Positions 43,446 through 47,832 of a DNA stretch of 64,000 nucleotides are shown piece after piece. The position numbers were made by a program, and so were the translations under genes. Numbering within the stretch: the first letter of the stretch is position 1; every line of letters begins with the position of its first letter. The notes under the pieces were generated by a model, which was not told the DNA's origin, ran no database searches, and worked only from the letters and a program-made list of their open reading frames with translations. Origin of the DNA: Lentilactobacillus laojiaonis (GTDB lineage: Bacteria; Bacillota; Bacilli; Lactobacillales; Lactobacillaceae); NCBI RefSeq assembly GCF_020616595.1, contig NZ_CP085278.1:62001-126000 (forward strand), given 5' to 3'.

Positions 43446-44288
43446 ATGAAACATAAATTAATGACCACCTTAGCACTGGGATTATCATTAACCGGTGTGG
43501 GGATATTAACTAATCAAACTAACACAAACGCAGCTACTAAATACGTTTGGACTAAAACTAAAAGTTATCAAGCAACTACGCCTGCATATCATGCTAAAAA
43601 TGCTGGCCAGACGGCTTATTTATGGAACGCTAGTCATACTAAAAAATTACACAATGCTAAGAATTATCCACATACTACCTGGTATGTTCAACGTAGTGTC
43701 GCCATGAAGCATGGTAATAAAACAACAGTTTATTATCAAGTAGTTAGTGGCAATAAAAAAGTAACGGGCTATATCTATCGAGGTTTCTTAACTAAGGGCA
43801 AATATCAAGCTAATCACGAAAACAATTATCAAGAAATCGATCGAGATCGATATATCGATGCTTATGGTGTTGAAACTTATCGTAGTCGAGGAGAATTCAA
43901 GCAGACTCTTTTATCAACTTTTAAAGGTACCGTAGCAGATCCTAAGTTAACTTCGGTTGCTGATAATGCTGTGGATTTAATATTAAATTCAATGACTGGC
44001 AGTGCTTCTCAACGAGATAAAGCTACAAACGACTATTATAATTTAATGGATAAGGTCAAGAAAGACCATCACGGCCAACTAATTCAAATTGAAAACAAAG
44101 GACGCTATACTAGAGATTCCAGACCTTTCAAGGAATATGTAATGAGCCAATTAAAAGCCAAAGGAATTAATCCAAATGATTATCAAGGTTATAAAATTGG
44201 GGTAAGTGCCGTAAGTAAGACTGAAAATGGTAATCTTAACGGAAGTGCCCATGGACTATTTGAAATCTTATTAGTACCTAATGATTAA
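43446..44288 (+). CDS. Secreted protein of unknown function, paralogue A
   Basis: A 280-residue protein with a signal peptide (hydrophobic core to about residue 22, cleavage near TNAAT). A Trp/Tyr/His-rich N-terminal module follows (about 32-122: KYVWTKTKSYQATTPAYHAK ... GYIYRGFLTKGKYQ) resembling SH3b/GW-like surface domains of lactobacilli (DUF5776-like, inference). A separate C-terminal domain (about 135-280) starts with DAYGVETYRSRGEFKQTLLS and ends GYKIGVSAVSKTE ... FEILLVPND. The next gene has the same architecture. AAGGAG precedes the ATG; its own terminator follows. Probably surface-associated; the C-terminal domain is not known to me. Confidence 0.75.
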   Translation: MKHKLMTTLALGLSLTGVGILTNQTNTNAATKYVWTKTKSYQATTPAYHAKNAGQTAYLWNASHTKKLHNAKNYPHTTWYVQRSVAMKHGNKTTVYYQVVSGNKKVTGYIYRGFLTKGKYQANHENNYQEIDRDRYIDAYGVETYRSRGEFKQTLLSTFKGTVADPKLTSVADNAVDLILNSMTGSASQRDKATNDYYNLMDKVKKDHHGQLIQIENKGRYTRDSRPFKEYVMSQLKAKGINPNDYQGYKIGVSAVSKTENGNLNGSAHGLFEILLVPND

Positions 44289-44422: not shown

Positions 44423-45289
44423 ATGAAACATAAACTAATAACTACTCTAGCACTAGGCTTAACCGTAACTGGTGCAGGGATGCTAGCTAACCAAACTAAA
44501 GCTAGTGCATCTACTAAATATGTATGGACAAAGACTAAGAGTTATAAATCAACTACGCCCGCATATCATGCCAAAAAGCAAGGCCAAACGGCTTACTTAT
44601 GGAATTGGAATCACACCAAGAAACTACATAACTCAAAGAACTATCCCCACACTACCTGGCACGTTCAACAAAGTGTTGCCATGAAACACGGTAAAAAAAC
44701 CACCATTTACTATCAAGTAGTTAGTGGCAATAAAAAGGTAACTGGTTATATCTATCGTGGTTATTTAACTAAAGGTAAATATCAAGCTCCAAGCAACAAT
44801 AACAATAACTCAAATAATAACAATTCAAATAATATTAATTCTGACAAATATACTGATGCATATGGAGTAGAAAGTTATAAGAGTCGTGATGAATTAAAGA
44901 AAACTATTCTATCAATCTTTAGTGGTGCAACTGAAGATCCAAAGTTAACCTCAGATGCTGATGAAGCTATTAATTTAGGATTAAGTAGTATTTCAGAAGA
45001 TGGTTATATAAGAGATACTTGGTCAAATAAATACTATGATTTTATTGATAGTTTAGATAAAAAAAATGATGGAAAATTAATTTCTGTTAATACTTTTAAA
45101 GCATTAACAGATGACGTTTCTTATAAAGATTATATACTCGGTAAGTTAAATGTTAAAAAAATTAATCCAGATAACTATAAAGGTTATAAAATTGGTGTAA
45201 GTGCGGTAAGTAAGACTGAAGATGATTATGATAATTACTTTGGTAGTGCTTATGGAAGATTTGAAATTTTATTAGTACCTAATGACTAA
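44423..45289 (+). CDS. Secreted protein of unknown function, paralogue B
   Basis: A 288-residue tandem paralogue of the preceding gene. The signal peptide and N-terminal module are nearly the same (KYVWTKTKSYKSTTPAYHAK). The C-terminal domain keeps the ends DAYGVESYKSRDELKKTILS and GYKIGVSAVSKTE ... FEILLVPND, but its middle is quite different. Between the modules an Asn/Ser-rich linker (about 127-145) replaces the short linker of paralogue A. So the presentation module is under constraint while the C-terminal domain diversifies. GGAGA precedes the ATG. No terminator was seen directly after it. Confidence 0.75.
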   Translation: MKHKLITTLALGLTVTGAGMLANQTKASASTKYVWTKTKSYKSTTPAYHAKKQGQTAYLWNWNHTKKLHNSKNYPHTTWHVQQSVAMKHGKKTTIYYQVVSGNKKVTGYIYRGYLTKGKYQAPSNNNNNSNNNNSNNINSDKYTDAYGVESYKSRDELKKTILSIFSGATEDPKLTSDADEAINLGLSSISEDGYIRDTWSNKYYDFIDSLDKKNDGKLISVNTFKALTDDVSYKDYILGKLNVKKINPDNYKGYKIGVSAVSKTEDDYDNYFGSAYGRFEILLVPND

Positions 45290-45402
45290 CCATATAGATA
45301 TGAAGTTGGGAAAAATGTGGGAAATGTAAACGATATTTTAAATTATACTAATAATTGTAATCGGCGCTGGTTATAAATATTAAATTTTAGGAGATTATAG
45401 TT

Positions 45403-45636
45403 ATGGCAATTGATGTTTCTAATACTCCCGATGGTTATACTATTAATGTTTCAGGTAGTTTTACTTTTAATACTACTTGTGGAGTATGAGCTGAACCTGA
45501 TATGAGTGCCACAGCATTAGCTGCATATCATGCTGGCGACACGGTTTATTATACAAGTAAATTAAAGTCAGGTAACCATTTCTGGTTATCCTACACTAGT
45601 TATTCCGGAGATATTCGTTACGTTCTTAATAGTTAA
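45403..45636 (+). pseudogene. Free-standing SH3_5 wall-binding domain gene with in-frame TGA
   Basis: An ATG at 45403 with AGGAGA upstream opens a 77-codon frame interrupted only by TGA at 45487 (codon 29). Before it: MAIDVSNTPDGYTINVSGSF then TFNTTCGV. After it: AEPDMSATALAAYHAGDTVY, a middle, and SYSGDIRYVLNS before the stop at 45634. The pattern SFT-N ... AY-AG-TVYY ... FWLSY-SYSGD-RYV is that of the SH3_5 domain of lysostaphin-like and phage endolysin wall-binding domains. Trp at the TGA would fit. No signal peptide and no catalytic domain are present. It is either a fresh nonsense mutation (TGG to TGA) or a readthrough product. Confidence 0.7.
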
Positions 45637-45668
45637 CCTAATAAAATTAAAATGCCATAATTAATCTC

Positions 45669-45707
45669 AAAAGCCGTCATTCATTGAATTGAATGACGGC
45701 TTTTTTT
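45669..45707. terminator. Bidirectional terminator (SH3_5 gene / GcvH-like gene)
   Basis: AAAAGCCGTCATTC pairs with GAATGACGGCTTTT around an eight-base loop with A and T tracts on both sides. Confidence 0.9.
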
Positions 45708-46092
45708 AACCCTTATTAGGTGCAACTTCTAGTAACCAATTTTCATGAGGATCGCCATAATTTAGACGACTTAGGTTGTCGTTTAAGTAAGGATTTTTGG
45801 ATAAAATAATTCCACTAATTGGAGAGGTGAGAATAGTTGAGCTATTTTCGCCAGTTACTTCAATAAAAGATTCATCTTGGTTAATTTCTTTATCAGTTAT
45901 TAAAAAATGTACATATTCAATTTTGCCAGTTTTGGAAAGTACTCCAGGATCTAAACCCAGAAGATAGTTTTCGTTATCCTCTAAATGATACCAGATCCCA
46001 TTTTTGATATTTTCCTTAGGAAGTGGTGAACTCATTTGGTTAGTTGAGAAAAAATTTTTAATGCGATTAATCCATGCAAATTTACTCATCAT
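45706..46092 (-). CDS. GcvH-like protein lacking the lipoyl lysine
   Basis: The 128-residue product matches the H protein of the glycine cleavage system in length and in the sequence GIWYHLEDNENYLLGLDPGV, the beta-hammerhead, and the tail NPYLNDNLSRLNYGDPHENW. In true H proteins the lipoylated lysine lies eleven residues before the final G of the P-V-S-G turn. Here that turn is PISG (residues 91-94) and the aligned position is Asn83 (V-T-G-E-N-S-S-T). No lysine is nearby. It is divergent from a lipoate-ligase homologue. GAGGTGA precedes the start (ATG-ATG at 46092/46089). It cannot be a normal lipoate carrier; its role is unknown. Confidence 0.72.
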   Translation of the reverse strand: MMSKFAWINRIKNFFSTNQMSSPLPKENIKNGIWYHLEDNENYLLGLDPGVLSKTGKIEYVHFLITDKEINQDESFIEVTGENSSTILTSPISGIILSKNPYLNDNLSRLNYGDPHENWLLEVAPNKG

Positions 46093-46180
46093 AAGTCACC
46101 TCAATACTATTTTCTTCAATTATAACCTATAATTAAAGTCGCATTAAGAATATGCAATTAGATATTAAGGGGGAAGTGTA

Positions 46181-47161
46181 ATGTATTTAATAGTTAATTC
46201 CAAAGAAACTAAATTTGCGAATATGGCAGTTGTTAACCAAGCCATCGAAAATTACTTTGTCAATGACCTACAAAAAGATGGTCACGGTGTGATGATTTAC
46301 GCAAGTAATCCTGCCGTAATTATTGGCCGTGATGATAACATTTGGGAGACTTTAAATGTGCCCCTCATGAATCAATATCATTTAGAGTTAGTAAGAAAAC
46401 CAATTAATAGTAACATTCAATATAACGATAGTGGGACCTTAAAAATTAATGAAATCATTGGTAAAGATGATGGTAATTTTGAAAATTATGATTACTTTGC
46501 TAAACCGATCTTAAAAGCCCTAGAAAATTTGGGGGTTACTGCCAAATTAAAAGATCGAACTAATCAATTACAAGTTAACGATAAAACATTTGGACGCATT
46601 CAAATGCAGAAAAATGCTCGAGGATACACGGTAGATGTTGAGATTTTATTTAAAGTTAATCAAGATATCGCTAAAAAAGTCATTTTAGAACCTTCATTTG
46701 ATGAACTAATTAATTTAGCAAGTGAATTACCATCTAAAGTTAGTCTAGATGATTTAAGAGCGGCGATTATTAAAGTGATGTTTAACGTCGATGATATCGA
46801 TGATGCTCAAGACTATCAAATCTCAACCACTGATTGGGAGCAAATTGAACACAGTTTGGCCGATGAATTTGGTTTAGATTCATGGAATTATGGTCATAAT
46901 GCTGGTTACGGTCAATATGCTGACGAAGCTTTTTCAGCTGGTAAGTTAGGGATTAATTTTACCGTAGTAGGCAATCAATTTACGGCTTTCAAATTTGTAC
47001 CGTTCTTCAAGATTGAAGGGGACTTATCCGCAATTGAAACAGCTTTAGTTGGTAGTGATACTAGCGATGACGCCATTGAAAAAGCTGTCGATCAGGGACA
47101 TCTAAAAACTTTAGAAAAACAAAAAATGCTCAATTTTATAACGCATAAAGTAGTTAAATAA
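46181..47161 (+). CDS. Lipoate-protein ligase A homologue with degenerate lipoate-binding loop
   Basis: A 326-residue protein with the LplA plan. The N-terminal strand-helix MYLIVNSKETKFANMAVVNQ and NPAVIIGRDDNIWETLN (residues 44-60) align well with LplA. The C-terminal accessory domain (about 240-326) is present. The signature RRLSGGGAVYHDxGNLN, which holds lipoyl-AMP, is replaced by VRKPINSNIQYND (residues 71-83), and K-I-S-G-N-A around the catalytic lysine by K-T-F-G-R-I (Lys135 kept). It should bind lipoate poorly if at all. GGGGGA precedes the ATG. Divergent from the GcvH-like gene, which is altered in the matching place. Confidence 0.78.
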   Translation: MYLIVNSKETKFANMAVVNQAIENYFVNDLQKDGHGVMIYASNPAVIIGRDDNIWETLNVPLMNQYHLELVRKPINSNIQYNDSGTLKINEIIGKDDGNFENYDYFAKPILKALENLGVTAKLKDRTNQLQVNDKTFGRIQMQKNARGYTVDVEILFKVNQDIAKKVILEPSFDELINLASELPSKVSLDDLRAAIIKVMFNVDDIDDAQDYQISTTDWEQIEHSLADEFGLDSWNYGHNAGYGQYADEAFSAGKLGINFTVVGNQFTAFKFVPFFKIEGDLSAIETALVGSDTSDDAIEKAVDQGHLKTLEKQKMLNFITHKVVK

Positions 47162-47192
47162 AAAAGCTGATGAATTTCATCAGCTTTTTTTA
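47161..47192. terminator. Bidirectional terminator (LplA-like / azoreductase)
   Basis: AAAAAGCTGATGA pairs with TCATCAGCTTTTT around a short loop. Confidence 0.87.
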
Positions 47193-47193
47193 T

Positions 47194-47832
47194 TTAGAAT
47201 TGTTGGCCGAGTTCTTCGGATTGACGATAGGCAGCTTGTTTAGCTTGTAAATCTGCTTGTGGATTTTGACCATTAAGACCTTCACAGTAGATACCTTGAA
47301 CGTCGGTAACCCCAATTTGTCTAAGAATCATTCTAAGATAGTGGTCACCCATATCTAGTTTTAGCATATCGGGATTATCACTTGAATGATATTTACCGGA
47401 TGAAGATTGAATATGAAGGGCAATTTTATCTTTAAGGAAACCACCTTTTTGGTAATCCCAAGTTTTCGTTGCTTGGCAGACGATATCTAAATAATCCTTT
47501 AATTTAGATGGTAAAAATAAATTGTACATTGGATTAATAAATACGTATTTGTCAGCTTTAATGAATTCTTCTTGTAGTAGTTGTTGGCGACTAATTAAGA
47601 TATGTTCATCTGGAGTTAATTCATCATACTTGGTGCCGTCGGTTAATTTTTTCCAGACGTTTAAATTAGAACTGTCGATGGCGATATTTCCCTCAGCATA
47701 TAAGTCATGAACTAATACATCGTCTTGTGGATTTGATTCTTTATAACTTTCGATAAATCGATCACCCATAGTTAATGAAGTAGAAATCACATCGCTAGCA
47801 GGGTGAGCTTTGATTACTAATAAAGTAGCCAT
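47194..47832 (-). CDS. azoR: FMN-dependent NADH-azoreductase / quinone reductase
   Basis: A 212-residue flavodoxin-fold enzyme that uses NADH to reduce quinones or azo compounds through bound FMN. It shows the N-terminal phosphate loop TLLVIKAHPASDVISTSLTM, the block YVFINPMYNLFLPSKLKDYLD that contacts the flavin, and SSSGKYHSSDNPD, as in AzoR. GGGGGA precedes the ATG at 47832. It is one of four flavin or NAD(P)H-dependent reductases within about 30 kb (also 22209, 47908 and 52415), suggesting investment in redox balance or quinone detoxification in a non-respiring organism (inference). Confidence 0.9.
   Translation of the reverse strand: MATLLVIKAHPASDVISTSLTMGDRFIESYKESNPQDDVLVHDLYAEGNIAIDSSNLNVWKKLTDGTKYDELTPDEHILISRQQLLQEEFIKADKYVFINPMYNLFLPSKLKDYLDIVCQATKTWDYQKGGFLKDKIALHIQSSSGKYHSSDNPDMLKLDMGDHYLRMILRQIGVTDVQGIYCEGLNGQNPQADLQAKQAAYRQSEELGQQF

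Follow-up and report, generated by a model that had tools for sequence, protein, structure and literature searches.

A divergent pair of a lysine-less H-like protein and a lipoate ligase homologue with a lost active site in Lentilactobacillus laojiaonis

Analysis of a 64,000-nucleotide stretch of the Lentilactobacillus laojiaonis genome (the window) identified two divergent genes separated by 88 bp: a minus-strand gene coding for a GcvH-like protein of 128 residues and a plus-strand gene coding for a homologue of lipoate-protein ligase (LplA) of 326 residues. Coordinates, strands, lengths, divergence and gap are as given in a preliminary description of the locus. The genome is available as a single 1.24-Mb contig, in which profile searches found one GCV_H match, the GcvH-like protein, and one LplA match, the LplA homologue. 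The features of the locus, together with the empty site of the pdh operon discussed below, are collected in Table 1.

Table 1. Features of the H/LplA locus and of the pdh site in L. laojiaonis
Feature	Position	Strand	Remarks
Inverted repeat followed by a T-run, 3' of the H gene	45663..45706		terminator-like by eye; not listed by the scan
GcvH-like H-protein	45706..46092	-	acceptor Lys replaced by Asn83, recognition Glu by Thr80
Intergenic region, 88 bp	46093..46180		each gene has its own Shine-Dalgarno-like sequence, GAGGTGA (minus strand) and AGGGGGAAG (plus strand)
Palindrome AATTATAACCTATAATT	46118..46134		between the start codons; back-to-back -10-like hexamers ATTATA / TATAAT, or operator
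LplA homologue (putative pseudoligase)	46181..47161	+	loop, catalytic Lys and KRLGVxSKRS segment lost
Inverted repeat followed by a T-run, 3' of the LplA homologue	47162..47194		terminator-like by eye; not listed by the scan
Empty pdh site	L201 11882-12884 (G000:C1 about 367.9-368.9 kb)		151 bp between a deformylase gene and a UPF0223-like gene

Upstream of the pair in window coordinates, two plus-strand genes (43446-44288 and 44423-45289) code for tandem paralogous signal-peptide proteins, both beginning with MKHKL(M/I)TTLALGL; clustering showed that they are absent from the 13 other genus stretches compared. A decayed plus-strand reading frame with one in-frame stop (45379-45636), resembling by eye an SH3-like wall-binding domain, lies between these secreted-protein genes and the pair. 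The neighbourhood shared by L. senioris, L. kribbianus and L. laojiaonis includes flavin reductases, an OsmC-family protein and ClpE, which offers a lead towards redox stress as a context for the pair.

Pfam GCV_H spans residues 34-125 of the GcvH-like protein (28.5 bits; cut-off 22.2). The GcvH equivalog models were not reached (TIGR00527, 28.0 against 115.85; NF002270, 33 against 117), and they were also failed by the two intact Lentilactobacillus relatives and the one Levilactobacillus relative tested. As the preliminary description had proposed, alignment places Asn83 at the position of the lipoyl-lysine (VTGENSSTILTSP, against IEGDKSVETLKSP in relatives). The acceptor lysine is present in 21 of the 22 Lentilactobacillus H-proteins adjoining this LplA, the sole exception being L. 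laojiaonis, and in 46/46 H-proteins from 48 further loci. The glutamate three residues before the acceptor follows the same distribution (21/22 and 46/46) and is replaced in L. laojiaonis by Thr80. In a family-wide search with an H-protein alignment, 133 of 301 genomes matched at E 1e-12, other H classes included; of the best 30 loci, which were read and overlap the two sets above, 29 keep the lysine. The acceptor hairpin of the L. laojiaonis protein does not contain any lysine. The fold is predicted with confidence: the AlphaFold2 model, guided like that of the LplA homologue by an alignment of intact relatives, has a pLDDT of 84.2, with 93-97 for the core residues 31-100. A W/F-rich N-terminal segment (residues 5-15, SLWQKIxxFF), conserved in the class-A H-proteins (those paired with the LplA class defined below) of Lentilactobacillus and Levilactobacillus, is retained in recognisable form. 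An amphipathic membrane helix at this N-terminus is not claimed, the hydrophobic moments being mostly not above those of shuffled sequences.

LplA-B_cat (PF21948) spans residues 18-199 of the LplA homologue (63.8 bits; cut-off 27), and PF10437 stays just under its threshold (23.9 against 24). The TIGR00545 equivalog, with a cut-off of 280, is not reached (137.4); the L. kribbianus orthologue scores 197.5, the L. senioris orthologue 288.6 and a second LplA of L. kribbianus 446. The closest solved relative by sequence is 8cri (E 2.3e-27), and the AlphaFold2 model has a pLDDT of 92.0 and a pTM of 0.86. The loss of the lipoyl-AMP loop (RRxSGGGAVYHD), noted previously, is borne out by the alignment: VRKPINSNIQYND is aligned with RRTSGGGAVYHD, and RKPINSNIQYND stands in place of the latter. 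The preliminary description had further stated that the catalytic lysine was kept as Lys135. This was mistaken, as K138, the catalytic residue of the Mycoplasma Lpl (6JOM), aligns with Thr136, and Lys135 corresponds to the lysine next to it in the KK[FW]SG motif. In Escherichia coli LplA the catalytic lysine is K133. In addition, the KRLGVxSKRS segment is deleted. Several losses go beyond those described before: the glutamate at -3 in the H-like protein and, in the LplA homologue, the SG of KxSG (replaced by Gly138-Arg139), the AAGGTxMYD strand and about 12 residues preceding the INL segment. The earlier statement is upheld that carrier and modifier have changed in matching places, those of a single reaction, while both frames stay open. 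From these replacements the module is predicted to lipoylate no longer in the L. laojiaonis lineage.

LplA of class A, a class assigned from alignment together with identities of 34-40%, was found in 23 of 24 genomes of the genus (all but G003), and an opposite-strand H gene lies beside it in 22 of the 24 (not in G007). The two genes thus occur together in relatives, the co-occurrence check that the preliminary description had suggested. A profile search of GTDB genome contigs with an alignment as query returned 68 LplA loci; the L. laojiaonis LplA alone as query returned none. In 48 of the 68 loci (L098-L145; Lentilactobacillus, Levilactobacillus and relatives), an upstream opposite-strand H gene was present within about 1.1 kb in 46 cases. 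The locus is syntenic with that of relatives, which excludes a chance similarity. The pair is an old divergent H/LplA module shared by Lentilactobacillus and Levilactobacillus, and appears to have been inherited vertically.

The loop of the ligase is intact in 20 of the 23 genus sequences, the others being those of L. laojiaonis, L. kribbianus (WRTTDSGVVLHD) and L. kosonis. The pattern R[RK]xxGGGxV was found in 67 of the 68 scan loci, with L. kribbianus as the exception. The L. kosonis sequence in the genus set is only the C-terminal half of a split LplA, the intact motifs lying in the other half. In that species (L144 8090-9014; L024) the class-A LplA is divided between two frames with its active-site motifs intact; the split may be an assembly error, as the genome is a draft, 83% complete and with 7% contamination.

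The palindrome between the two start codons is conserved as well. Its core, TTATANNNTATAA, occurs at 20 of the 22 Lentilactobacillus loci of the pair (the exact core is missing in L015 and L023) and in 15/15 intergenic regions that were read, that of the window and 14 others; by eye, the palindrome is absent from three Levilactobacillus intergenic regions and one Ligilactobacillus region. The sequence ATTATANNNTATAAT occurs once in the whole 1.24-Mb genome, and a control with the reversed pattern gave 0. A sigma-70 scan was uninformative: it gave 8 promoter-like sites and 1 terminator-like site, and chance alone would give 8.2 and 0.8, respectively. The argument for the palindrome therefore rests on its conservation. 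Read as -10 elements, the pair of hexamers would set the start sites at a distance of about 28 bp from each other, a spacing slightly wider than the 7-25 bp by which bidirectional promoters are defined in the consulted part of PMC10268837. Alternatively, the palindrome may be an operator.

The genome was searched for proteins that could be clients of a lipoate ligase. Biotin_lipoyl and 2-oxoacid_dh (E2) gave no match in L. laojiaonis in profile searches, and each is present in 23 of 24 genus genomes. PF03099 also gave no match; since this model misses the L. laojiaonis LplA as well, the result is weak evidence on biotin ligase. At the site of the pdh operon, 151 bp separate two conserved flanking genes which in L. 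kribbianus are 5,252 bp apart with the operon between them; L. senioris likewise carries the operon at this site. An assembly gap was rejected as the cause, as the 151 bp join the conserved flanks inside one contig. The pdh operon has been cleanly deleted from this genome. With a completeness of 88.8% as estimated by the tool, the absences of lipoate genes outside the pdh site rest on profile searches. Lacking a Biotin_lipoyl match, the genome likewise yielded no biotin carrier protein of acetyl-CoA carboxylase, which suggests dependence on external fatty acids.

Conservation of the pair was compared with that of its neighbours. Both proteins keep 48% of their near-invariant positions (LplA 82/170, H 21/44), against 71-88% for the well-sampled neighbours, with at least 7 comparators (DegV 61/81, DUF7671 42/48, P8 30/42). 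Neighbours with only 2-3 comparators range from MMPL (269/549, 49%) to OsmC (51/62, 82%). In L. kribbianus, the corresponding counts are 110/170 for LplA, 36/44 for H, 74/81 for DegV and 44/48 for DUF7671. The constraint on the L. laojiaonis pair is clearly relaxed, and its release would be explained by the lack of any detectable lipoyl or biotinyl domain or E2 in the genome.

The losses in LplA are uneven. With active-site segments chosen by hand after the alignment had been seen, near-invariant positions were kept at 12/46 inside these segments and 46/72 outside them in L. laojiaonis (P 7e-5), and at 18/46 and 63/72, respectively, in L. kribbianus (P 5e-8). On these counts the L. kribbianus LplA is a cleaner pseudoligase candidate than that of L. 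laojiaonis. When the contact residues given in the part of PMC7186572 consulted were used instead, the difference ran in the same direction, with borderline significance for L. laojiaonis (6/21 kept against 52/97 others, P 0.053) and with P 0.036 for L. kribbianus (10/21 against 71/97). No preferential loss was detected in L. laojiaonis at columns conserved in all LplA classes as compared with class-specific columns (31/64 and 44/89 kept), which speaks against retention.

In L. kribbianus the paired LplA (L098 8004-9035) has lost both the loop and the catalytic lysine, the neighbouring H-protein retains Lys and Glu, and the genome keeps E2 and one lipoyl domain, as well as the second LplA, with an intact loop (RRLSGGGAVYQD). 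The losses of ligase and acceptor are separable, and the changes that the preliminary description had seen as matching do not always go together. In the rpoB tree, L. laojiaonis branches outside (L. kribbianus,(L. senioris x2)), and a clade of L. laojiaonis with L. kribbianus is rejected (p-AU 0.003); this topology would mean two independent inactivations of LplA. The LplA tree groups these two species (98/97; p-AU of the species grouping 0.0245), a signal that vanishes once the active-site columns are removed (p-AU 0.41). Replacements at near-invariant columns of these two LplA proteins are identical in 11/35 cases against 13% expected (LG+G4, species tree), a fraction reached in 5.7% of 300 simulations. 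The trees disagree and long branches are involved; the inactivations may go back to one event or to two.

With open frames, confidently predicted folds and catalytic residues that have been lost, the L. laojiaonis pair is a candidate pseudoenzyme pair. The best reading, and on balance probably the correct one, is that of a pseudo-pair which no longer lipoylates and has been retained for some residual protein-protein role. Its main rival is a late-stage relic, in which the lipoate-using complex was lost, both genes became functionless and are drifting, and the open frames, the promoter and a sequence still compatible with the folds persist only as remnants of a recent loss or of a weak constraint that acted until recently. 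This relic is plausible, although we regard it as rather doubtful. In its favour are the disappearance of all detectable clients from a small genome, the strongly relaxed conservation of both proteins, the long branch of the L. laojiaonis LplA (4.93 against a median of 0.15) and the decayed reading frame that adjoins the pair. Against it stands the open LplA frame, since a neutral path through most of the active-site replacements would have introduced stops: under a simple base-substitution model without indels, starting from the sequence of the window itself, the frame stayed open in 0.5-0.7% of runs when 20% of residues were replaced, and in 0/400 and 0/600 runs when 50% were. In the palindrome core 12 bases are fixed, and these survived 50% neutral replacement in 2.5% of runs. 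The unequal loss between the active site and the rest of LplA also speaks against a relic. Simple neutral decay thus fits poorly with open frames, confident predicted folds, preferential active-site loss and an intact palindrome. The preliminary description had preferred a repurposed pair to random decay; its objection to simple random decay stands, and its preference is weakened by a constraint that is relaxed relative to the neighbours. Weighing the uneven active-site loss, the open frames and the intact palindrome against the relaxed conservation, the case for a retained non-catalytic role is good for the L. kribbianus LplA and moderate for the L. laojiaonis pair.

Two readings in which the pair would still carry out or serve a modification were also considered. 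The pair might attach another group, perhaps at another residue, through a re-shaped ligase site, as would be compatible with the alteration and retention of both partners and with a pocket-domain fold predicted to be intact. We judge this very unlikely, given that the ligase has lost its catalytic lysine together with the loop and adenylate-side segment, that the acceptor hairpin is devoid of lysine and that no close relative shares this form of the pair. Another acyl adduct, one of the roles put forward in the preliminary description, is the least likely version of the repurposed pair proposed there, since neither the nucleophilic lysine nor the adenylate/lipoate loop nor the catalytic lysine remains. 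The pair might also belong to a GcvH-L/LplA2/SirTM/macrodomain module for lipoylation-dependent ADP-ribosylation, whose two-protein logic, as presented in the portion of PMC4518038 consulted, is the same. This is extremely improbable: profile searches of the genome gave no Macro match and a single SIR2 match, in a 235-residue frame about 0.9 Mb away, and the target lysine and glutamate of that module are absent from the H-like protein.

A retained pseudo-pair could have arisen in steps. The ligase would have become dispensable as an enzyme first, with selection continuing on its fold, a stage that L. kribbianus represents; when the L. laojiaonis lineage lost its lipoate-using complex, the acceptor lysine would have gone as well. 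Both proteins would still be made from the conserved divergent promoter region, and the folded non-catalytic pair would persist, most likely as a non-covalent complex of LplA fold and H fold without acyl transfer. Common ancestry suggests that the LplA-fold protein still binds its H-fold partner, in a binding or regulatory role that would be weaker than the ancestral one or only a part of it. That the two proteins, a ligase-fold pseudoenzyme and a lysine-less H-fold protein co-expressed from one symmetrical promoter region, form such a lipoate-free binding or regulatory complex is a real possibility, to which we give somewhat less than even credence.

If so, the intact pair of Lentilactobacillus and Levilactobacillus would already have a structural function beside lipoylation, and L. 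kribbianus would represent a half-converted form. A functional pair would separate the roles of H-protein and ligase as proteins from their roles as chemistry, in a host without a detected lipoyl or biotinyl domain to confuse an assay. L. senioris (both proteins intact), L. kribbianus (ligase with dead motifs, intact carrier) and L. laojiaonis provide a natural three-step series for a non-catalytic role of the ligase. Should the pair be a relic, it would instead give a clear view of how a cofactor system is dismantled step by step: the ligase site first, then or together with it the client, and the acceptor residue last, with the regulatory element still standing.

Neither the folds nor the pair nor dedicated H/ligase systems are new, as far as the consulted parts of PMC4518038 and PMC6067878 describe them; the open-access literature searched yielded no report of an inactive LplA/H pair, nor of one whose two partners have both lost the chemistry where the genome lacks detectable lipoyl domains. 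Like the L. laojiaonis pair, GcvH-L/LplA2 of the SirTM operon combines an H-like protein with a dedicated ligase outside the glycine cleavage operon. According to the text of Rack et al. (2015, PMC4518038) consulted, GcvH-L is lipoylated at Lys56 and needs Glu53 for recognition; that pair keeps its ligase and acceptor residues, whereas the pair described here has lost the equivalents of Lys56 and Glu53 (Asn83 and Thr80) and the ligase site, and no macrodomain was found in its genome and no sirtuin beside it. LbpA/sLpl of Hdr-like sulfur oxidation is also a GcvH-like carrier with a specific ligase outside glycine cleavage; unlike the protein described here, LbpA keeps the lipoyl lysine in 95/95 aligned sequences (PMC6067878, in the part consulted). 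Mhp-Lpl of Mycoplasma hyopneumoniae (6JOM) shares its fold and the N-terminal stretch MYLI..RNGK..D with the genus orthologues of the L. laojiaonis LplA; it is an active ligase with the loop RRDTGGGAIYLD and the catalytic K138 (consulted part of PMC7186572), both of which the L. laojiaonis protein lacks. The class-A pair of Lentilactobacillus and Levilactobacillus is orthologous to that of L. laojiaonis, with the same divergent arrangement, synteny and N-terminal W/F segment. Unlike L. laojiaonis, the class-A loci examined preserve the loop and the lysines, with two exceptions: L. kribbianus has lost the ligase motifs beside an intact H-protein, and in L. kosonis the frame of the ligase is split although its motifs are intact. 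The Lentilactobacillus pairs share with that of L. laojiaonis the intergenic palindrome.
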